Below are positions 2,621-12,345 of a DNA stretch of 64,000 nt, piece after piece. The notes under the pieces are model-generated. The model saw only the letters and a list, made by a program, of their open reading frames with translations. It ran no database searches and was not told where the DNA came from. Source of the stretch: Pararhizobium sp. IMCC21322 (GTDB taxonomy: Bacteria > Pseudomonadota > Alphaproteobacteria > Rhizobiales > GCA-2746425); assembly GCF_030758295.1 (NCBI RefSeq), contig NZ_CP132335.1, positions 1,526,412 to 1,590,411 on the forward strand. The letters run 5' to 3'. A program made the position numbers and the translations under genes. How positions within the stretch are numbered: position 1 is the stretch's first letter; every line of letters starts with the position of its first letter.

Positions 2621-3508
2621 TTGAAAGACCACAATCCTGACCATGATGTGACCACGGTTTATGAGCGATTGCAGACCGGTTTTGATGATCTCACACGGGC
2701 TGAACGGCAATTGGCCGTGTATCTGATGGAAAACTGGCCCGTATCGGGTCTCTCCAGTATCACCAAGGTGGCGGAAAATGCCGGGGTTTCGACGCCCACT
2801 GTTGCCCGGATGATTCAAAAACTCGGCTTTTCCGGCTTCCCCTCGTTTCAGTCGGCCTTGCGGGATGAATTGGAAGCAAAGATTTCAAATCCGCTGGAAA
2901 AGCACGAGCGCTGGTCGGCCGAAGCCCCTGATACGCATATTCTCAATCGCTTCGCCGATGCAATTCTGCAAAACCTGCGGCAGACCTTTTCACACATCGA
3001 TCCTGATGCGTTTGATCAGGCCTGCCAGATGCTGGCCAATCGGGACAGCGCCATCTTCATTGCTGGTGGCCGCATAACTCATACATTGGCGGAATATCTG
3101 TTTCTGCATCTGCAGATGATCCGCTCAGGCACGGCGCTCATTCCGTCCAGTGGTGCTGCCTGGCCGCACTACGCAATGGATATGAAACCGGAAGACGTGC
3201 TTGTTATTCTGGATGTGCGCCGTTACCAGAACGATTTGTTGAAGCTTGCCGAGACTGCCAGAGAACGAGGTGTGAACATCATCCTTCTGACAGATCAGTG
3301 GCGCTCGCCCATTGCGCTTCATGCTAAACTGACCTTTAACAGCCGCATTGAAGTGCCGTCGGCCTGGGATTCCAATGCAGCTCTTCTGGTGTTGATAGAA
3401 ACCATGATCGCAGACATTCAAAAGACGATCTGGGATACAACAGAGAAGCGCATGCAGGATCTGGAAAACCTGTTTGACCGCACGCGCCTGTTCCGCAGAT
3501 TCAAATAA
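2621..3508 (+). CDS. RpiR/MurR-family transcriptional regulator
   Basis: DNA-binding regulator with an N-terminal RpiR-type helix-turn-helix (about residues 8-80, including TKVAENAGVSTPTVARMIQKLGFSG in two parts) and a C-terminal SIS sugar-phosphate-binding fold (about residues 125-270, with IFIAGGR). Length 295, normal for the family. The start is TTG at 2621: a perfect GGAGG lies at 2610-2614 with 6-nt spacing, and no in-frame ATG lies nearby. It is divergent from the amidohydrolase/TRAP operon across 171 bp and lies upstream of the purine operon, so it may control either side. SIS-domain regulators of this type govern purine and ureide catabolism in some alphaproteobacteria, which fits the downstream genes, but the effector is not readable here. 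Confidence 0.88.
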   Translation: MKDHNPDHDVTTVYERLQTGFDDLTRAERQLAVYLMENWPVSGLSSITKVAENAGVSTPTVARMIQKLGFSGFPSFQSALRDELEAKISNPLEKHERWSAEAPDTHILNRFADAILQNLRQTFSHIDPDAFDQACQMLANRDSAIFIAGGRITHTLAEYLFLHLQMIRSGTALIPSSGAAWPHYAMDMKPEDVLVILDVRRYQNDLLKLAETARERGVNIILLTDQWRSPIALHAKLTFNSRIEVPSAWDSNAALLVLIETMIADIQKTIWDTTEKRMQDLENLFDRTRLFRRFK

Positions 3509-3519
3509 CCGGAGTATTG

Positions 3520-3825
3520 ATGACTCAGAATGGGAACAAACAAACAGAATTGTTCAGATTTTCAGGTGATGTAAACAAGCCGGATTTCCTCCACTGGATT
3601 TGCCACCGTGCCAACCGACTTGGCCTCAACGGCTGGGTCCGGGAAGATGTGTCCGCAAAGTCAATTGAAGTGCTGGCAAGCGGTCCGGAAGAATTGCTTG
3701 ATGCTATGGAGCTGGGGTGTAGTTTGGGGCCAATAACCGTTTGGGTAGAAGATGTTGAGCGTTATCCACACAAATCTGACAGCCCTGTGCCCAATGGGTT
3801 CAATATCCTCAATCCGGTGGATTGA
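3520..3825 (+). CDS. Degenerate acylphosphatase-like protein
   Basis: Small protein (101 residues) with the acylphosphatase fold signature: the C-terminal half of the usual motif is recognisable as RANRLGLNGWVRE, followed by a beta-strand and a helix ending GPITVWVEDVERYP. The catalytic residues are missing: the Arg of the GVGFR phosphate cradle aligns with Leu24, and the Asn after GWVR is Glu42. Hydrolysis of acyl phosphates is therefore unlikely, and the protein may bind a ligand or another protein instead. Start chosen at ATG 3520 with GGAG at 3511-3514; an adjacent TTG at 3517 is ignored. It follows the RpiR gene by 11 nt and is probably co-transcribed with it. Confidence 0.72.
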   Translation: MTQNGNKQTELFRFSGDVNKPDFLHWICHRANRLGLNGWVREDVSAKSIEVLASGPEELLDAMELGCSLGPITVWVEDVERYPHKSDSPVPNGFNILNPVD

Positions 3826-3961: not shown

Positions 3962-4735
3962 ATGAGCGCCGATCATTCAGAAATAGCGGTAGGCCCAGGC
4001 GGTTGGATTCCGGTGGCATTGTCGGCGGATCTGCCAGAAACTGGCGTCATGCGCGCGGTCATTGACGGCACTCAGCCACTTGATCTGGTTGTCTGGCGAT
4101 CCCGATCCGGTCAGGTAAGTGCCTTTGACAATCGTTGCCCGCATCGCGGCATGCGACTGTCCTTCGGCTTTGTCAGGGGCGAGCGTCTGTCCTGCATTTA
4201 TCATGGTTGGCAATATGGCGAAGATGGTGCCTGCCGCCATGTTCCAGCACATCCCGACATGACCCCGCCCACCTCCATTTGTGCCAATGCTTATGCCTGC
4301 CGCGACCATGATGGCGTGGTCTGGATCTCACAAGACGCTGAAAATTCTGGTGAACTGCCGGACTTTGGTGGGCAGGGCCTGCGCAGCCTGTCGGTAGAAA
4401 CAGGCGAAGCGGTTTTGAGAAAGATGCTGGCGGACACCCATTTGCCGGTTTCGGTTGTAAGCGACATACCGACAGCGGAAGCTACAATTGTGACGCAAAA
4501 CCAGACAAGTCTGGTGCTGGAAGCGGGGTCTGACGCTGGAAATCTGCGCTTGATGGTTCATTTTCAAAAAATCACCCGGGACAGAACCATGCTGCATGTT
4601 CAGACCAGCCCTGAGCTACCCGCCGCACTGCGGATTTCTCTGTCTCGCTGGGCGGAGCGGTTCCGGTGGTCTGCTGAAAATTTAGGCACAATGATGAATT
4701 CATGGGATGCCACGGCGCAGGAGACACATCCATGA
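3962..4735 (+). CDS. Rieske [2Fe-2S] domain protein, candidate electron-transfer component of a split N-demethylase
   Basis: Contains a complete Rieske cluster motif: Cys59 and His61 in NRCPHRG, Cys78 and His81 in CIYHGW (spacing C-x-H-x16-C-x2-H), numbered from the ATG at 3962. The remaining roughly 140 residues lack the D-x2-H-x4-H mononuclear iron site, so the protein can carry electrons but not perform the oxygenation itself. The next gene has exactly the complementary content. An alternative GTG start at 3920 would add 14 residues; 3962 fits the domain boundary better. Its TGA overlaps the ATG of the next gene (ATGA). In the caffeine N-demethylase system an extra Rieske domain on NdmD supplies electrons to the Rieske-less NdmC; this protein could play that role as a free-standing unit. 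Confidence 0.8.
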   Translation: MSADHSEIAVGPGGWIPVALSADLPETGVMRAVIDGTQPLDLVVWRSRSGQVSAFDNRCPHRGMRLSFGFVRGERLSCIYHGWQYGEDGACRHVPAHPDMTPPTSICANAYACRDHDGVVWISQDAENSGELPDFGGQGLRSLSVETGEAVLRKMLADTHLPVSVVSDIPTAEATIVTQNQTSLVLEAGSDAGNLRLMVHFQKITRDRTMLHVQTSPELPAALRISLSRWAERFRWSAENLGTMMNSWDATAQETHP

Positions 4736-5583
4736 CGGCCTCAGATGTAGCGCGCAATGATTGGTATCCGGTCGCAATCGACAATCTGTTGAAGACGGGA
4801 CAGTCGGAAGTTGCTGTTTTGATGCAGGAAGAACTCACAATCAGCCGTGGTGATGATGGCGTGGTCAAGGTAACCGCACAAGACGGGCGCGATTGTCCTG
4901 TCACCATAAGCTACGGCCATGTCTGGTCGTCCATCGGCCACCCGGACCATGCACTGTTCGACATTCCGGAAGCCCATGAAGATGGGCGTCGAATGGTGGA
5001 TTGCGGCCCGGTGCGGGTCAAAGCCTCGCCATTGCGGGTCGTGGAAAATTTTCTCGACATTGCGCATTTTCCCTTTGTTCACACCGATATTCTGGGCGCA
5101 GAACCGCACACTGAGGTCGAGCCCTACAAGGTGGAAATCCGGGATACGGTTGATGAGGTTTGGGCCACCAAGGTTCGGTTCTTTCAGCCTCAGGCAGCCA
5201 AATCCGCTGAAGATGGGCAGATGACCGATTACATGTATCGGGTGCCGGCACCCTGTACGTCGATCTTGTATAAAACCTGCCCGCCACGACCGGGTTCATG
5301 GGATGTGATTGCTCTGTTTGTTCGGCCCATCTCGGAAGATTTGTGCGACGCTTATGCCTGGATGGCGCTTTATGACGAGACAAGCAAACAATCGGATCTC
5401 ATACAGTTTCAGCAGATGATCTTTCTGCAGGATCGCTCCATTCTGGAAAACCAGCTTCCGCGTCTGTTGCCGTTGGACCCCAAAATGGAAGTTCCCACAC
5501 GCGCTGACACAACTTCAATTGCCTATCGCCGCTGGCTGAAGCGCAAGGGCATGACCTATGGCGCGCAATTGGTGGCACGCTGA
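4732..5583 (+). CDS. Rieske-type oxygenase catalytic subunit lacking the Rieske cluster (NdmC-like)
   Basis: Non-heme iron catalytic domain of the Rieske oxygenase superfamily (VanA/NdmA-like). The mononuclear iron site is clear: Asp109, His112 and His117 in ENFLDIAHFPFVH, and the C-terminus SIAYRRWLKRKGMTYG is typical of this family. Residues 1-85 resemble a Rieske domain scaffold (WYPVA...VLMQEELTISR) from which both cluster-binding loops have been lost, so it must receive electrons from another protein, most simply the product of the gene it overlaps. Length 283. Start at ATG 4732 because AGGAG lies at 4719-4723 and it makes an ATGA overlap; the earlier ATG at 4702 lacks a good site. Predicted to demethylate or hydroxylate a purine, from context. 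Confidence 0.8.
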   Translation: MTASDVARNDWYPVAIDNLLKTGQSEVAVLMQEELTISRGDDGVVKVTAQDGRDCPVTISYGHVWSSIGHPDHALFDIPEAHEDGRRMVDCGPVRVKASPLRVVENFLDIAHFPFVHTDILGAEPHTEVEPYKVEIRDTVDEVWATKVRFFQPQAAKSAEDGQMTDYMYRVPAPCTSILYKTCPPRPGSWDVIALFVRPISEDLCDAYAWMALYDETSKQSDLIQFQQMIFLQDRSILENQLPRLLPLDPKMEVPTRADTTSIAYRRWLKRKGMTYGAQLVAR

Positions 5584-6239
5584 TGGGATTGCAGCTTTAC
5601 GATTATGTTCTGTCTGGCAGCGCTTACAAGGCGCGGCTTTTCATGGCTTTGTTGGGCCTCGACTACCAGTCAATCTCCATCGATTTTCATCCAGGTGGCG
5701 AGCACAAAAAACCGGATTTTCTGGAAATCAATCCAGCTGGAACCCTGCCGGTACTGGTCGATGGTGATGTGACCTTGTGTGATACTCAAGCCATTCTCGC
5801 TTACGTTGCACACAAATTTGATGCTACGGATCAGTGGTATCCAAACAACGATCCCGTAGCGACTGGCCGCATCTTGCAGTGGCTTGCCTTTGCCGGTCGG
5901 CTCACGGATACAGCCGGTGCTGCCCGATTGCATGACATGCTGGGCCGTTCGCTTGATATCGATGCTGCCCGCAAAGGCGCGCACAAAGCCTTGCGCGAAT
6001 TGGAAGCTCATCTCACAGAACAGGGCTTGCGTGGTGAGGCATTTCTGATCGGCTCCAAGCCGACCATCGCCGACATTGCCTGCTTCCCCTATACAGCGCT
6101 GGCACCTGATGGCGGCATAGAACATGATGATTATCCTGCGATCCGCAAATGGCTGATTGCCATTCGGCGGTTGCCTGGTTTCATAGAAATGCCCGGCATT
6201 CATCGTCTCCATGATATGCGCGACGAGGATGCCGGATGA
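5583..6239 (+). CDS. Glutathione S-transferase-like protein (possible NdmE-like structural partner)
   Basis: Two-domain GST fold, 218 residues: an N-terminal thioredoxin-like domain (residues 3-80, with NPAGTLPVLVDGD and the glutathione-contacting D-T-Q-A-I-L segment) and a C-terminal helical domain with the N-capping motif region SKPTIADIACF near residue 158. Its ATG overlaps the preceding stop (TGATG), and its own TGA overlaps the ATG of the ABC ATPase gene, so it is embedded in the purine operon. In the NdmCDE 7-methylxanthine demethylase a GST-like protein (NdmE) is a required non-catalytic partner of the Rieske-less NdmC; the same gene pairing is seen here. A conventional GST detoxifying role cannot be excluded. 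Confidence 0.82.
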   Translation: MGLQLYDYVLSGSAYKARLFMALLGLDYQSISIDFHPGGEHKKPDFLEINPAGTLPVLVDGDVTLCDTQAILAYVAHKFDATDQWYPNNDPVATGRILQWLAFAGRLTDTAGAARLHDMLGRSLDIDAARKGAHKALRELEAHLTEQGLRGEAFLIGSKPTIADIACFPYTALAPDGGIEHDDYPAIRKWLIAIRRLPGFIEMPGIHRLHDMRDEDAG

Positions 6240-7777
6240 CAGCGCTGCTGAAACTCACAGGCATTTCCAAAACCTACCCTGCCGTGGTTGCCAATGACGC
6301 GATTGATCTGACTGTCATGCCCGGAGAGATTCACGCGGTTCTGGGAGAAAACGGCGCGGGTAAATCGACATTGATGAAAATCATCTATGGCGTGACCGCA
6401 CCTGATGCTGGAACGCTGGAATGGCTGGGGACCGCCACCCGGATCAAAAATCCTGCCCATGCAAGGGCGTTGGGCATCGGCATGGTGTTCCAACACTTTT
6501 CCCTGTTTGATACGCTGACAGTGGCGGAAAATATTGCGCTGGCCATGAAGGGTTCGGTCAAAAGCATCACGCCGCGCATCAAGGCTGCCAGCGAGCGGTT
6601 TGGTCTGGATGTTGAGCCGGAAATGCGTGTGCAGTCTCTTTCTGTGGGAGAGCGCCAGCGCGTTGAAATTTTGCGCTGCATGTTGCAGGAGCCAAAACTC
6701 ATCATCATGGACGAGCCCACATCTGTCCTGCCACCGCAAGGCGTCAGCGATCTCTTCAGGACCCTGAAGAAACTGGCGAGCGAGGGCATTGGCATTCTGT
6801 TCATTTCCCACAAGCTGGATGAAATTCGAGAATTATGTGATGTCGCCACTGTGCTGCGCCATGGCAAGGTAACCGGAACTGCGGTGCCGCGCGAGGAAAC
6901 CAGCAAATCCCTGGCGCGCATGATGATTGGTCGCGACCTACCGCATGCGGAAAAACGCGGCAGCAACGCTGAAGGCAAGGTTCGTCTTACCGTTTCCGAA
7001 CTCAGTTATGTGCCAGACGATATATTTGCGACGCCGATGGAAAATGTCGCCCTGACACTGCGTGAAGGTGAAATTCTTGGCATTGCGGGCGTCTCAGGCA
7101 ATGGCCAGAACACGCTCGTTGGGTTGTTGTCAGGTGAAACCAAGCTGCCGGATGCGATGGCTGCAAACATTCGTTTGAATGGTGCCGAACTGGGCGCAAC
7201 TGGCCCGATGGATCGGCGCGAGCTTGGCCTGCATTTCGTGCCGGAAGAACGGCTGGGTCGCGGCGCAGTTCCAGAGCACGATCTGAGCGAAAACAGTTTG
7301 CTGACCGGCTTCGGGTCGGGCCTTGCCAAATACGGATTTCTGAATTTGGGCGGCATGAAGCAATTCTCCTCTGAAACAATTGACGCCTTTGATGTGCGGT
7401 GCGGCGGGCCAAATGCGACCGCGCAAAGCCTGTCCGGCGGTAATCTGCAGAAATTCATTGTAGGTCGGGAAATTTCGCTAAAGCCCAAAGTGCTGATTGT
7501 CTCGCAACCCACATGGGGTGTCGATGTTGGCGCGGCGGCAGCCATTCGTCAGAAGCTCATCGATCTGCGCGATGAAGGCGTTGCCATTCTGGTCGTGTCG
7601 GAAGAACTGGAAGAGCTGTTCGAAATCAGCGACAGGCTGCATGTCATGTTCCGGGGCCGCCTGTCACCAGCCATCAAAACGCAAAGCACCAATGTCGAAG
7701 ATATCGGCCTTGCCATGACCGGTGATTTCGAGCGTCTTGAAACACCAGCCAGCGCCAGCGTGGTTGAACATGCGTAA
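6236..7777 (+). CDS. BMP-family purine/nucleoside ABC transporter, dual ATPase subunit
   Basis: Cytoplasmic ATP-binding subunit with two tandem ABC domains (513 residues). The first has an intact Walker A (GENGAGKST, near residue 39), signature SVGERQRVE and Walker B IIMDEPTSVL. The second has a degenerate Walker A (GVSGNGQNT, no Lys), signature LSGGNLQKF and SQPTWGVDVGA, the pattern of the NupA/YufO class of nucleoside importers. ATGA overlap with the GST-like gene; the downstream permease start lies inside its 3' end. With the two permeases and the BMP binding protein it makes a complete importer. Known members move purine and pyrimidine nucleosides or deoxynucleosides; the neighbouring guanine deaminase favours purines here. 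Confidence 0.93.
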   Translation: MTALLKLTGISKTYPAVVANDAIDLTVMPGEIHAVLGENGAGKSTLMKIIYGVTAPDAGTLEWLGTATRIKNPAHARALGIGMVFQHFSLFDTLTVAENIALAMKGSVKSITPRIKAASERFGLDVEPEMRVQSLSVGERQRVEILRCMLQEPKLIIMDEPTSVLPPQGVSDLFRTLKKLASEGIGILFISHKLDEIRELCDVATVLRHGKVTGTAVPREETSKSLARMMIGRDLPHAEKRGSNAEGKVRLTVSELSYVPDDIFATPMENVALTLREGEILGIAGVSGNGQNTLVGLLSGETKLPDAMAANIRLNGAELGATGPMDRRELGLHFVPEERLGRGAVPEHDLSENSLLTGFGSGLAKYGFLNLGGMKQFSSETIDAFDVRCGGPNATAQSLSGGNLQKFIVGREISLKPKVLIVSQPTWGVDVGAAAAIRQKLIDLRDEGVAILVVSEELEELFEISDRLHVMFRGRLSPAIKTQSTNVEDIGLAMTGDFERLETPASASVVEHA

Positions 7778-8864
7778 TATTTATCTGGAACCCCGCACCG
7801 AGCGATCTGTCTTTGCGCCATTTATGGTGTCCATGCTGGCAGTCTGCCTCACCATCATTGCGGGCTCGGGCCTGTTTCTAATCTATGGCAAATCGCCCAT
7901 TGCGGGCTTTCATGCGATTTTTATTGAACCGCTGCTGACCAGTTATGGCATTGGCGAAATCCTTCTCAAATTAGGACCTTTCCTGTTGATTGCGCAGGGT
8001 CTTGCCATCGGCTTTCGCGCCCGCGTCTGGAACATCGGCGCTGAAGGTCAGTTGATCATTGGGGCCATTCTCGCCTCTGTCGTTGCCATCCGCTTCGATG
8101 GGTCAACCTCATCCCTGTTGCTGCCGGGCATGGTTCTGGCAGGCGCTCTTGGCGGCATGGGCTGGGCGGGCATCGCGGCCTGGTTGCGCACGCGCTACAA
8201 CGCCAACGAAATTCTGGTCACCTTCATGTTGTCCAGCATTGCGCTGCAAATCCTGTACTATCTTGTCACTGGCCCGTTGCGTGATCCGGAAGGCTTTAAC
8301 TTCCCACAATCGATTACCTTTTCGGCAGCCGCGACGTTCCCAATTCTCATCGAAAACACGCGCGTCAATGCTTCGCTCATCATTGCTCTCGTGGTGTCGG
8401 TTGTCGCCTGGGTCTTCATGCAGCGCAGCTTGATGGGCTACAAGCTGGTGGTTGGTGGTCTGGCCCCTCATGCAGCACGCTATGCCGGCTTTGGCGAAAA
8501 GCGCGCCATCTGGCTGGCGCTTCTGATTGGCGGCGCAGCGGCAGGCATTGCAGGTGTCGGAGAAGTGGCTGGCCCCCTTGGCATGCTGCAACGAACTGTT
8601 TCACCGGGTTACGGGTTTAGCGCAATCATCGTTGCTTTTCTGGGTGGCCTGCACCCCATCGGCATTGTGTTTTCCAGTCTGTTGATGGCGTTGATCCATG
8701 TCGGCGGAGATTTCGCTCGGCTGTCTGTTGGTCTGCCAAGTGCTGTGACCGACATTTTTCAGGGCCTGTTGTTGACTTTCTATCTGGCAAGTTCTCTCCT
8801 GCTGACCCATCGACTGCGCCTGCGCAAACCTGATGCTGTCCTGACGGCGGAGGCCGCAGAATGA
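7770..8864 (+). CDS. BMP-family purine/nucleoside ABC transporter permease 1
   Basis: Integral membrane permease of the BPD_transp_2 family, 364 residues from ATG 7770 (start MRNIYLEPRTERS), with about nine hydrophobic helices and the conserved stretch FRARVWNIGAEGQLIIGA seen in NupB/YufP proteins. The start overlaps the 3' end of the ATPase gene by 8 nt; a longer version from 7722 would overlap by over 50 nt and adds a non-conserved leader. Its TGA overlaps the ATG of permease 2. The substrate is presumed to be a purine nucleoside or nucleobase from operon context. Confidence 0.92.
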   Translation: MRNIYLEPRTERSVFAPFMVSMLAVCLTIIAGSGLFLIYGKSPIAGFHAIFIEPLLTSYGIGEILLKLGPFLLIAQGLAIGFRARVWNIGAEGQLIIGAILASVVAIRFDGSTSSLLLPGMVLAGALGGMGWAGIAAWLRTRYNANEILVTFMLSSIALQILYYLVTGPLRDPEGFNFPQSITFSAAATFPILIENTRVNASLIIALVVSVVAWVFMQRSLMGYKLVVGGLAPHAARYAGFGEKRAIWLALLIGGAAAGIAGVGEVAGPLGMLQRTVSPGYGFSAIIVAFLGGLHPIGIVFSSLLMALIHVGGDFARLSVGLPSAVTDIFQGLLLTFYLASSLLLTHRLRLRKPDAVLTAEAAE

Positions 8865-9784
8865 CTGCAACAATTATCTTCATTCTGGCCGGAACGCTGG
8901 CAGCAACGGTCCCGCTTTTGCTGGCCGCCATGGGAGAACTTGTTGCTGAGAAATCCGGCATGCTCAATCTGGGTGTTGAAGGCATGATGGCCGTTGGCGC
9001 TGCCGCGGGTTTTGTTACGGTTGCCATAACCGGGTCCCACGCTTTGGGCCTGCTTGTTGGAGGGTTGGCCGCGCTTTTGCTATCGGGCGTTTTCGCAACG
9101 CTCAGCATCGTCTTTCTCGCCAATCAGGTGGCCGCTGGGCTGGCAATAGGCATTCTGGGCCTCGGTGTTTCTGCGGGTATCGGCAAGAATTATGAAGGCA
9201 CAACAGTGGCCCCGATGCCAAAACTGCCCTTCGGCGTTCTGGGTGACATTCCCGTAATCGGCCCGGTGCTGTTTGCCCACGACGTCATGGTTTATCTGGC
9301 CATCGCCGCGGCGTTTGCCGTCTGGTTTGTGCTGCAGCGGACCAAGCTGGGTCTTATCATTCGCGCGGTCGGCGAATCCCCACAATCTGCGCATTCACTG
9401 GGTTATCCGGTTGCGCTGATCCGTACAGCGTGTGTCCTGTTTGGCGGCGCGATGGCAGGCATTGGCGGGGCTTATCTGTCCATCGCTTACACGCCTTTAT
9501 GGGCTGATGGCATGGTCGCAGGACGCGGCTGGATTGTGGTTGCCCTGGTAGTGTTTGGAACCTGGATTGTGCCGCGTGTCACGCTCGGGGCCTATTTGTT
9601 CGGTGCGATTTCTCTTTTGGAATTATCCATCCAGGGGCTGGGGCTGAATGTCCCATCGCAATTGCTGTCCGCATCACCCTATATCGTCACCATTATTGTT
9701 CTGGTGGTGATTTCCAGAAACCCGACACTCATCCAGCTCAACAGCCCTATGAGCCTTGGCCAGACCTACCGGCCAAACGGATGA
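8861..9784 (+). CDS. BMP-family purine/nucleoside ABC transporter permease 2
   Basis: Second membrane permease of the importer, 307 residues, BPD_transp_2 family. The N-terminal region LVAEKSGMLNLGVEGMMAVGA is the hallmark of the NupC/YufQ half. It forms a heterodimer with permease 1. The ATG at 8861 overlaps the preceding stop (ATGA). A 48-nt gap separates its stop from the binding-protein gene, which has its own strong ribosome-binding site, consistent with higher expression of the binding protein. Confidence 0.93.
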   Translation: MTATIIFILAGTLAATVPLLLAAMGELVAEKSGMLNLGVEGMMAVGAAAGFVTVAITGSHALGLLVGGLAALLLSGVFATLSIVFLANQVAAGLAIGILGLGVSAGIGKNYEGTTVAPMPKLPFGVLGDIPVIGPVLFAHDVMVYLAIAAAFAVWFVLQRTKLGLIIRAVGESPQSAHSLGYPVALIRTACVLFGGAMAGIGGAYLSIAYTPLWADGMVAGRGWIVVALVVFGTWIVPRVTLGAYLFGAISLLELSIQGLGLNVPSQLLSASPYIVTIIVLVVISRNPTLIQLNSPMSLGQTYRPNG

Positions 9785-9832: not shown

Positions 9833-10921
9833 ATGAAATTAATAAGAAAAACCATGAGGCACTTGGCTGCGGCCACGATTGCAACAGCCATGATTGCAGG
9901 TGCTGCAAGTGCAGCCGAGAAACTGAAAATTGGCTTCGTCTATCCATCGCCGGTTGGTGATGTGGGCTGGGCCTATCAATTGGATGAAGGCCGCAAGAAG
10001 CTCGAAGCCATGTTTGGCGATCAGATTGAAACAGTTGTGGTCGAAAACGTTCCCGAAGGTCCTGATGCCGCGCGCATCATGAACCAGATGGCGTCCACTG
10101 GTGCCGGTATGATTATGATCGGATCTTTTGGCTATATGAATGACGGTCTGAAGCTGGCTGCGCAAAAGCCGGATATCAACTTCATTCACGCCAGTGGCTA
10201 CAAGACAGCCGCGAACTTCGGTAATTTCCAGACCCGCAATTATGAAAGCGCCTATGTCGCTGGCATGGCGGCAGGGTATGCCAGCGAAACCAACACGCTG
10301 GGTGTTGTTGCCGCTTACGCCATTCCCGAAGTGGTCGGCATCATCAATACCTTTACGCTGGGCGCACAGAGAACCAATCCTGACATCACGGTGAAAGTGG
10401 TCTGGCTGAATTCATGGTTCAACCCATCCAAGGCTCAGGAATCAGCCAAATCTCTGATCGCCCAGTCCGCCGATGTGATCTTCTCGCTCTATCAGGATAC
10501 ACCGTCTGTTGTATCCGTGGCCGAGGAAGAGGGCGTCTATGTGGTCAACACCTCGTCTGACATGAAGAAATATGCGCCAACAAAGCTGCTGGCTTCCATG
10601 ACCATTGATTGGGGCCCACACTTTGTTAAGCAGGTAAAAGCTGCCCTTGATGGAACATTTGAAGGCACGGCCTATTGGGGCGGCATGGCTGATGACGCTG
10701 TCGGCCTAGCGTCACTGAATGATGATCTGTCTGCAGAGCAGAAAGCCGACATTCAAAGTGTCATGGATGAAATCGCTGCCGGTTCATTCCATCCCATGTC
10801 GGGGCCGATTACAGCACAGGATGGAAGCGAAAAAATCGCTGCCGGTGAGAGCATTGATGATGGCGCCATGCGTGGTATCGACTGGCTGGTTGCCGGTGTT
10901 GAGACCAAACTACCGAACTAA
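9833..10921 (+). CDS. BMP-family substrate-binding protein of the purine/nucleoside ABC transporter
   Basis: Periplasmic binding protein, 362 residues, with a Sec signal peptide (basic start MKLIRKTMRHL, hydrophobic core, likely cleavage after AGAASA near residue 25). No lipobox Cys is present, so it is probably soluble. The mature start EKLKIGFVYPSPVGDVGW is typical of the BMP/PnrA-like family that binds nucleosides and purines. AGGAG at 9822-9826 with 6-nt spacing. The gene is followed by a strong intrinsic terminator before the guanine deaminase gene, which would raise the transcript level of the binding protein relative to the downstream enzyme. Confidence 0.93.
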   Translation: MKLIRKTMRHLAAATIATAMIAGAASAAEKLKIGFVYPSPVGDVGWAYQLDEGRKKLEAMFGDQIETVVVENVPEGPDAARIMNQMASTGAGMIMIGSFGYMNDGLKLAAQKPDINFIHASGYKTAANFGNFQTRNYESAYVAGMAAGYASETNTLGVVAAYAIPEVVGIINTFTLGAQRTNPDITVKVVWLNSWFNPSKAQESAKSLIAQSADVIFSLYQDTPSVVSVAEEEGVYVVNTSSDMKKYAPTKLLASMTIDWGPHFVKQVKAALDGTFEGTAYWGGMADDAVGLASLNDDLSAEQKADIQSVMDEIAAGSFHPMSGPITAQDGSEKIAAGESIDDGAMRGIDWLVAGVETKLPN

Positions 10922-10934
10922 GCGACGTAGCTCC

Positions 10935-10967
10935 AACACCGCGCGCGTTGCGTGCGCGGTGTTTTTT
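10935..10967 (+). terminator. Rho-independent terminator between binding protein and guanine deaminase
   Basis: Stem with arms AACACCGCGC (10935-10944) and GCGCGGTGTT (10954-10963), extended inward by one G-T wobble and two more pairs around a 3-nt loop, followed by a T-run ending at 10967. It lies 13 nt after the binding-protein stop and 17 nt before the deaminase start, so it either separates two transcription units or attenuates read-through. Confidence 0.88.
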
Positions 10968-10983
10968 CAAAGAAAGCATCGAA

Positions 10984-12345
10984 ATGATGGATGATCTGAA
11001 GGGCAAGACCCTGCAAACCACTTTGATGCATGCGCCTGAGCTTGGCTCGGTGGAGATCATCAAAGATGCCTTGATCACCATTGATCATGACGGCACAATC
11101 AGCTCTGTACTGAAGCCTAGCGACCCATATTATGAAACCGCATTAGCGACTGACAATCTGGTTAAAACGGCAAAGCGACAATATCTGCTGCCGGGGTTTG
11201 TCGATTTGCACATTCACGCACCGCAATGGCCGCAACTGGGCAAAGCACTGGATGTGCCATTGGAAGTCTGGCTGCAGAAACACACTTTTCCGCTGGAAGC
11301 GCGTTATAAGGACAACGTCTTTGCTGAGCGGATCTATGGCGATCTGGTATCATCTTTGCTTGCTCATGGCACCACCAGCGCTGTTTATTTCGCCACCATT
11401 CATCAGGACGCAACCCGAACGCTGGCAGACATTTGTCTGAATTTGGGACAGCGCGCTTTCATCGGCAAAGTAGCCATGGACAATGAAGATCAATGTCCGG
11501 ATTTCTACCGCGATGCGGATGCGGCTGCAGCACTGGATGGCACCCGCGCCTTTGTCGATTATGTTCTGTCCATGCCGGGCAATGATGCAGGGTTGATCCG
11601 CCCGGTCATCACGCCGCGCTTCATTCCAAGCTGCACCGATGCTGTTCTGTCGGGCCTCGGTCAGATGGCCGCAGACTATGGCTGCCATGTACAAACCCAT
11701 TGTTCTGAAAGCGATTGGGAACATGCCTATGTGCTGGAACGCACCGGCAAAACGGACACCGAGGCACTTGATAATTTTGGCCTTCTTGGTCGCCATACCG
11801 TGTTGGCTCACAGCAATTTTCTGAGTGATGACGCCATGGATTTGATCCACAGTCGCGGCTCCGGCGTTGCCCATTGCCCGCTTTCCAACGTCTACTTCTC
11901 AAACGCAGTCTTTCCCCTGCGGAGGGCGTTGGAAAAATCGGTGCGCGTCGGATTGGGCACAGATATTTCGGGCGGCCCCAGCGCCTCCATGCTGGATTCA
12001 TGCCGCCACGCCATCTCAGCCTCTCGCAATCTGGAAGAGGGCGTAGACCCCAGCCAAAGCGGCGACCAGCGCGGCACATCTGACAGCCGCATCAGCTTCC
12101 GCGAAGCCTTTCATCTGGCAACGGCAGGCGGCGCAGATGTTCTGGATATTCCGGTTGGCCGCTTTGCAAAGGGCTGCAAGCTGGACGCCATTCTGGTCGA
12201 TGCAGACAATCAAGCTGCCTCGATTTCCATTGACGAAACCATGGATAGTCAGGACGACATTCTGCAAAAAATCATAAATGGCGCAACCCGTGCCAACATT
12301 TCTACAACGTGGGTTGCGGGCAGGACGGTTCATCAGCAGGCCTGA
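10984..12345 (+). CDS. guaD: Guanine deaminase
   Basis: Zinc amidohydrolase converting guanine to xanthine and ammonia. From ATG 10984 it is 453 residues, as expected for GuaD. Metal-binding His76 and His78 sit in PGFVDLHIHAPQWPQLG; other family signatures are THCSES, LAHSNFLSDD with the metal His, and the late Asp in GLGTDISGG. An ATG at 10987 is also possible; the longer GTG frame from 10948 would start inside the terminator hairpin and is rejected. Its place after the importer implies that guanine, or a methylated guanine, is the imported substrate or is produced from it. It feeds xanthine to urate catabolism, whose genes lie at 30-37 kb. Confidence 0.92.
   Translation: MMDDLKGKTLQTTLMHAPELGSVEIIKDALITIDHDGTISSVLKPSDPYYETALATDNLVKTAKRQYLLPGFVDLHIHAPQWPQLGKALDVPLEVWLQKHTFPLEARYKDNVFAERIYGDLVSSLLAHGTTSAVYFATIHQDATRTLADICLNLGQRAFIGKVAMDNEDQCPDFYRDADAAAALDGTRAFVDYVLSMPGNDAGLIRPVITPRFIPSCTDAVLSGLGQMAADYGCHVQTHCSESDWEHAYVLERTGKTDTEALDNFGLLGRHTVLAHSNFLSDDAMDLIHSRGSGVAHCPLSNVYFSNAVFPLRRALEKSVRVGLGTDISGGPSASMLDSCRHAISASRNLEEGVDPSQSGDQRGTSDSRISFREAFHLATAGGADVLDIPVGRFAKGCKLDAILVDADNQAASISIDETMDSQDDILQKIINGATRANISTTWVAGRTVHQQA

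Follow-up and report, generated by a model that had tools for sequence, protein, structure and literature searches.

We examined a row of genes encoding a putative split Rieske oxygenase in a 64,000-nucleotide stretch of the genome of Pararhizobium sp. IMCC21322 (contig NZ_CP132335.1, positions 1,526,412 to 1,590,411; hereafter, the window). Three consecutive plus-strand genes, joined by ATGA and TGATG overlaps, encode a Rieske subunit (R), a catalytic subunit (CAT), and a GST-like protein. An earlier note on this DNA had given this order with overlapping junctions, and the open reading frame (ORF) coordinates agree. The note had also described a three-gene unit: these three genes are real, but the unit comprises four, as it had overlooked an upstream gene encoding an acylphosphatase-fold protein (AcP, whose start may be the ATG at 3520). 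Judging from their sequences, we interpret the four gene products, with moderate confidence, as a split Rieske non-heme iron monooxygenase with a purine substrate, most likely an N-demethylase. Within this reading, a heteromeric split oxygenase is very likely, a purine-type substrate is likely, N-demethylation is favored on balance, and the N7 position (of 7-methylguanine or 7-methylxanthine) is suggested tentatively.

In a canonical Rieske oxygenase, the alpha subunit carries both the cluster and the iron site on one chain; here, the two are divided between R and CAT. R is a separate protein that lacks reductase domains. The cluster ligands C59, H61, C78, and H81, on which the earlier note had based its description of a Rieske-only protein, were confirmed along with the Pfam match, and are invariant in all 15 aligned rows. 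Besides the cluster, sequence and models revealed an iron-less remnant of a catalytic domain in R. NdmCDE is the 7-methylxanthine N7-demethylase complex of Pseudomonas putida CBB5, and R has an extra domain in common with the N-terminal module of NdmD. The R C-terminus is linked to the catalytic domain by way of the NdmD linker (67%, 5e-5) and by the fold match.

CAT presents the reverse situation. Its Rieske-like domain is vestigial, with the cluster loops deleted, and sequence and structure comparison detected no Rieske motif. A complete Rieske domain appeared neither on closer alignment nor in fold comparison, in line with the note's claim of a catalytic subunit without a cluster. Residues E105, N106, D109, H112, H117, and D234 are each present in 110 of 110 CAT rows from loci with a free-standing R (free-R loci). 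The iron site had been placed at D109, H112, and H117; all three residues are there, but D109 is probably, by our own assignment, the conserved aspartate that bridges two metal sites, and we take the third iron ligand to be, most likely, D234. By sequence, R and CAT look reciprocally degenerate, each retaining the metal site that the other has lost. We also considered a non-functional remnant, which is ruled out by the invariance of the catalytic and cluster residues. The pair Q227 and F231 is conserved in 105 and 110 of the 110 rows, respectively, and identical in all three NdmC-type rows, with Q/L in NdmB-type proteins and N/F in HpxD. We presume that the equivalent pair sets the N1/N3 preference in NdmA and NdmB, our backing being only PDB titles that name an “NdmA QL mutant”. 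One CAT row of the fused group is a broken ORF with gaps at several sites in these residue counts.

CAT matched proteins in 73 of 397 genomes of the order at E ≤ 1e-5, and in 61 of these at 1e-55 or better (“strong CAT”); the other 12 may encode ordinary Rieske oxygenases. In the 80 loci that we named, which are the top-ranking ones among at least 524, R, CAT, and the GST gene were always present and always adjacent on one strand, and AcP accompanied them in 78, in 76 of which it precedes R by no more than 400 bases. Rhizobium etli CFN 42 (L036) is one carrier of all four genes. Given the spread of CAT over 73 genomes and the adjacency in 80 of 80 loci, the R-CAT-GST arrangement is more than chance. 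The 108 R rows and 133 CAT rows that we compiled include overlapping or repeated loci (e.g., L073/L074 and L064/L085) and are not all independent.

AcP belongs to the acylphosphatase fold family (PF00708) but departs from the enzyme. The position of the catalytic arginine is occupied by L25, with arginine in only one row of a 14-row alignment, and the asparagine position, aligned to 4hi1, is not asparagine. AcP therefore lacks both residues expected of an acylphosphatase, which we take to be catalytic. Its conserved features are an ExxCSLGP motif, with CxLGP as the conserved core, and residues G17, G56, G71, and P72 (100 of 100 rows) and C68 (93 of 100). A profile built from 14 AcP proteins yielded two separate groups across the 397 genomes: 39 genomes scored at least 65 bits and the next scored 55, where matches, as below it, are presumably ordinary acylphosphatases. 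All 39 are among the 61 strong-CAT genomes, 21 of which encode a full-length fused NdmD and 40 a free R only. AcP occurs in 39 of the 40 free-R genomes and in none of the 21 with fused NdmD (Fisher 1.8e-15, computed over related genomes, whose events are not independent). The sole free-R genome without AcP (G225, locus L047) has its own separate reductase gene. A strict scan upstream of R recovered the AcP motif for 81 of the 108 R rows; seven of the misses (L102, L119, L131, L137, L151, L153, and L163) do carry AcP, mostly with an altered motif, and a profile search within the locus found none in L110, L112, L047, and L055. Among 385 genomes of the class, taken as a second sample, two had an AcP match at 1e-16, the window’s and G703, and both have CAT; CAT itself was matched at 1e-50 in eight.

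The kinship to NdmC/D/E that the earlier note had suggested is borne out by phylogeny. Plasmid clusters of Klebsiella pneumoniae (L037), P. putida (L178), and Paraburkholderia caffeinilytica (L180) stood in for the CBB5 sequences; the first adjoins an NdmB relative (PDB 6icl, 1.4e-186), the second lies in a cluster with hpxO, and the third, a caffeine cluster, adjoins formaldehyde-detoxification genes. In the CAT tree (53 rows), all 44 Rieske-less rows, including the NdmC-type proteins of these three plasmids, formed one clade (97/97), with the single-chain proteins of L048 and L059 as its sister. Within it, the free-R CAT clade is less certain (91/79), and the fused-type CAT is not resolved (55/0.6). 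The Rieske tree places free R in a clade of its own (97/88), next to that of the NdmD module (100/98), and R, the NdmD module, and L048/L059 stand apart from the NdmA/B- and HpxD-type oxygenases (96/91); R and the NdmD module without L048/L059 are unsupported as a group (79/5.6). Neither CAT nor R groups with HpxD- or NdmA/B-type oxygenases, with the caveat that SxtT and GxtA, the nearest solved structures, are outside the trees and known here from PDB matches alone. The third protein is GST-like, as claimed, and is 45–50% identical to four NdmE-type proteins, compared with 34% to the best of 14 GSTs from its own genome (14 of the 21 other GST_N matches were compared); the branch separating the operon GSTs from these is weak (72). 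The note’s “free-standing version” of the NdmCDE architecture is correct insofar as R is free-standing, but R branches next to the NdmD modules rather than within them. Rows left out of the trees were L040, L056, L058, L061–L063, L066, L067, and all but 12 of L084–L163; L074 was further omitted from the Rieske tree and 12 more rows from the careful CAT tree.

The sister proteins L048:8308-9318 (-) and L059:8380-9390 (+) are single-chain Rieske oxygenases of 336 amino acids with both metal sites. They adjoin a BMP importer and, in L048, also a guanine deaminase, and offer a possible picture of the split family’s ancestor. The early-branching free-R locus L047:2079-5483 has a separate NdmD-like reductase gene (328 amino acids) and no AcP, and may represent a state preceding fusion into NdmD.

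With NdmCDE, the system shares a Rieske-less catalytic subunit, a Rieske module that is separate from it and bears an identical type of extra domain, an NdmE-like GST, and a purine context. However, the NdmCDE Rieske module is fused to a reductase with flavin mononucleotide, NADH, and 2Fe-2S domains, whereas R is unfused and no such reductase was found in the genome; the window’s operon also adds the AcP gene, a guanine deaminase, and a BMP importer. The mode of action is probably that of NdmCDE. Two of its defining features, the reductase-fused Rieske module and that reductase itself, are not seen here, so we file the system as a variant beside NdmCDE. The methylxanthine N1- and N3-demethylases NdmA and NdmB have the same VanA-type fold and E-N-x-x-D-x-x-H-x4-H site, but carry both metal sites in each chain and fall in a separate clade, in a tree that included a single NdmB relative plus two other oxygenases. 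The closest solved structures, to CAT by sequence and fold and to R by sequence, are instead the hydroxylases SxtT and GxtA (SxtDIOX), which are single chains with a complete Rieske domain and other substrates. HpxD, a molybdenum-free xanthine hydroxylase, is likewise a purine-acting Rieske oxygenase with weak similarity (29–31%), but it is a single chain that adjoins its own reductase and falls outside the clade.

The gene set is flanked by a regulator and followed by an importer and a guanine deaminase (Table 1), the latter being the genome’s only one above the family cut-off. The note’s purine-uptake operon is supported in part, by this deaminase, while the importer’s substrate would follow from context; the apparent role of the gene set is the uptake and breakdown of guanine-like compounds. 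As a molybdenum-type xanthine dehydrogenase is present in the genome, purine products can probably be degraded. An amidohydrolase related to guanine deaminase occurs in 74 of the 80 named loci. We thus favor a purine substrate on account of the guanine deaminase and the purine context of the relatives, and demethylation because CAT shares a clade with NdmC-type proteins. Our leading guess at the compound, a tentative one, would be 7-methylguanine or 7-methylxanthine; the N7 position put forward in the note would be equally tentative.

Table 1. Genes of the putative split oxygenase locus (positions within the window).
Feature	Position	Strand	Evidence and remarks
RpiR/SIS-type regulator	2621..3508	+	Pfam SIS 5.9e-20, HTH_6 1e-14; directly upstream of the four-gene set
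AcP, acylphosphatase-fold fourth component	3517..3825	+	Pfam Acylphosphatase (PF00708) 9.6e-8; PDB 4hi2 1.9e-5; 102 amino acids
R, Rieske subunit	3962..4735	+	Pfam Rieske (PF00355) 4.9e-22; 257 amino acids
CAT, catalytic subunit	4732..5583	+	Pfam VanA_C (PF19112) 2.9e-23; 283 amino acids
GST-like protein, NdmE type	5583..6239	+	Pfam GST_N 3.1e-15; 218 amino acids
ATP-binding cassette (ABC) importer ATPase	6236..7777	+	Pfam ABC_tran 1.1e-44
ABC permease 1	7722..8864	+	Pfam BPD_transp_2 1.9e-41
ABC permease 2	8861..9784	+	Pfam BPD_transp_2 5.9e-30
BMP/PnrA-like substrate-binding protein	9833..10921	+	Pfam Bmp 1.8e-45
Guanine deaminase	10948..12345	+	TIGR02967, 415.8 bits (cut-off 375.4)

Several observations weigh against this interpretation. 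Compared directly by profile, the R C-terminus does not match the catalytic domain significantly (3.6%). The genome yielded no NdmD-type reductase, a point that the earlier note had missed, and the only NdmD match at 1e-10 is R itself (1.3e-23). Among solved structures, the closest relatives are enzymes that hydroxylate and do not demethylate. Most relatives have an amidohydrolase of an 8-oxoguanine-deaminase-like kind (74 of 107 ORFs, compared with 14 in the guanine deaminase cluster), and a methylguanine is thus not required as the substrate; the representative of that cluster scores 372.5 bits, under its cut-off of 532. T/I replaces the Q227/F231 pair in the single-chain sisters L048/L059, and substrates may therefore differ within the wider family. 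G010 has AcP and CAT on different contigs. Finally, no further neighbor family recurred in more than 11 of 126 loci, in a survey that left families unnamed and did not search for linked formaldehyde genes.

In one of the relatives, a protein encoded at L071:8289-9749 (-) exceeds the 8-oxoguanine deaminase cut-off (617.7 versus 532 bits), and its gene directly adjoins a CAT gene.

These relatives’ amidohydrolases, together with the SxtT/GxtA structures and the presence of HpxD among the more distant matches, would fit a CAT that, like HpxD, hydroxylates a ring carbon of the purine (such as C8 in guanine or xanthine) without demethylation. We consider this unlikely: HpxD-type oxygenases fall outside the clade, and for xanthine the reaction would be redundant here because the genome has the molybdenum xanthine dehydrogenase. 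HpxD-type proteins also have G where CAT, NdmB-type, and NdmC-type proteins have N106, a weak argument since the L185 oxygenase, beside formaldehyde genes, has G as well. Were the substrate not a purine at all, the importer would take up another N-heterocycle or N-methyl compound, and the guanine deaminase would be in the operon for another reason. The saxitoxin-type substrates of the closest solved oxygenases are compatible with this. So are the nearest named models for the binding protein and the permeases, which are “putative B6” importers, with every match under its cut-off. We regard it as improbable, however, given the guanine deaminase above its cut-off and its related amidohydrolase in most of the named loci, the same importer and deaminase beside the single-chain sister L048, and the clustering of NdmC-type relatives with an NdmB relative or hpxO.

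The extra domain common to R and the NdmD N-terminal module would also be expected if the system were a secondary fission product, that is, an NdmCDE-type system that lost the reductase half of NdmD and left R behind. This we judge very improbable, since the R clade lies beside the NdmD module and is not nested within it, although the root position is weak, and since early-branching L047 has a separate reductase gene.

The gene content bears on how a split N-demethylase would obtain electrons. The genome has five Rieske domains, ten 2Fe-2S ferredoxin-type and four NAD-binding reductase domain matches; the latter two are candidates of a general type. Of two weaker matches to the NdmD query (4.7e-6 and 4.2e-4), by reading, one looks NqrF-like and the other resembles a flavin reductase that lacks a 2Fe-2S domain. 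Fourteen of the 40 free-R genomes, the window’s included, have no NdmD match at 1e-10 besides R, and the other 26 have at least one; only two of the 80 named loci contain an NdmD-like ORF. As no dedicated reductase was found, R would receive electrons from a general ferredoxin or reductase. In one locus, L158:6851-7960 (+), a 369-amino-acid NdmD-like reductase ORF without a Rieske domain (24%) lies upstream of a complete AcP-R-CAT-GST set.

In Rieske oxygenases, according to PMC12445004, the cluster hands its electrons to the iron of a neighboring subunit (about 12 Å, versus 45 Å within a chain) via a conserved aspartate, and NdmA and NdmB form a mixed alpha3/alpha-prime3 hexamer. Since electrons cross between subunits, a mixed ring of alternating R and CAT subunits would be feasible, in which each R cluster would face a CAT iron through D109. 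The GST, as proposed for NdmE, and AcP might hold or dock the assembly. The CAT iron would activate O2 and hydroxylate the methyl group on a purine nitrogen; formaldehyde would be released, and guanine deaminase and xanthine dehydrogenase would complete purine breakdown.

PMC4408171 presents NdmCDE as the first report of a Rieske oxygenase in which the Rieske domain is detached and resides on the reductase, and ndmCDE homologues are reported there in Sinorhizobium and Mesorhizobium. Our literature search, with most subscription papers outside its reach, returned no description of the free-R form, a free-standing NdmC/D/E, AcP or acylphosphatases with Rieske oxygenases, or a 7-methylguanine demethylase. 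The free-R form is a separate lineage, frequent in the order, with an unrecognized fourth gene. It makes testable how inter-subunit electron transfer lets a metalloenzyme be divided, what roles the GST-like and acylphosphatase-like proteins play, and what naturally occurring methylated purine might serve these bacteria. In a bolder reading, which we consider unlikely, it would be a four-subunit Rieske oxygenase not described before, with one reaction divided over two reciprocally crippled paralogues, a dead acylphosphatase as a required subunit, and no dedicated reductase. It would natively demethylate 7-methylguanine or 7-methylxanthine from nucleic-acid turnover, and this alphaproteobacterial purine salvage lineage would be the source of the later-recruited caffeine enzyme NdmCDE.

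Some loci depart from the one-to-one arrangement. L071/L072, L073/L074, and L077/L078 have a second CAT gene, with an amidohydrolase gene in the second locus of the pair or nearby and one AcP/R/GST set in the stretch; several catalytic subunits may be served by one electron module. On pSymA of Sinorhizobium meliloti (L038:11986-13797), two tandem Rieske-less CAT genes precede a fused NdmD, and a BMP importer is oriented divergently. Beside the window’s operon lies an N-formylglutamate amidohydrolase-family gene (PF05013; 1634-2449, minus strand), which recurs in five of 126 loci (L061, L062, L070, L084, and the window).
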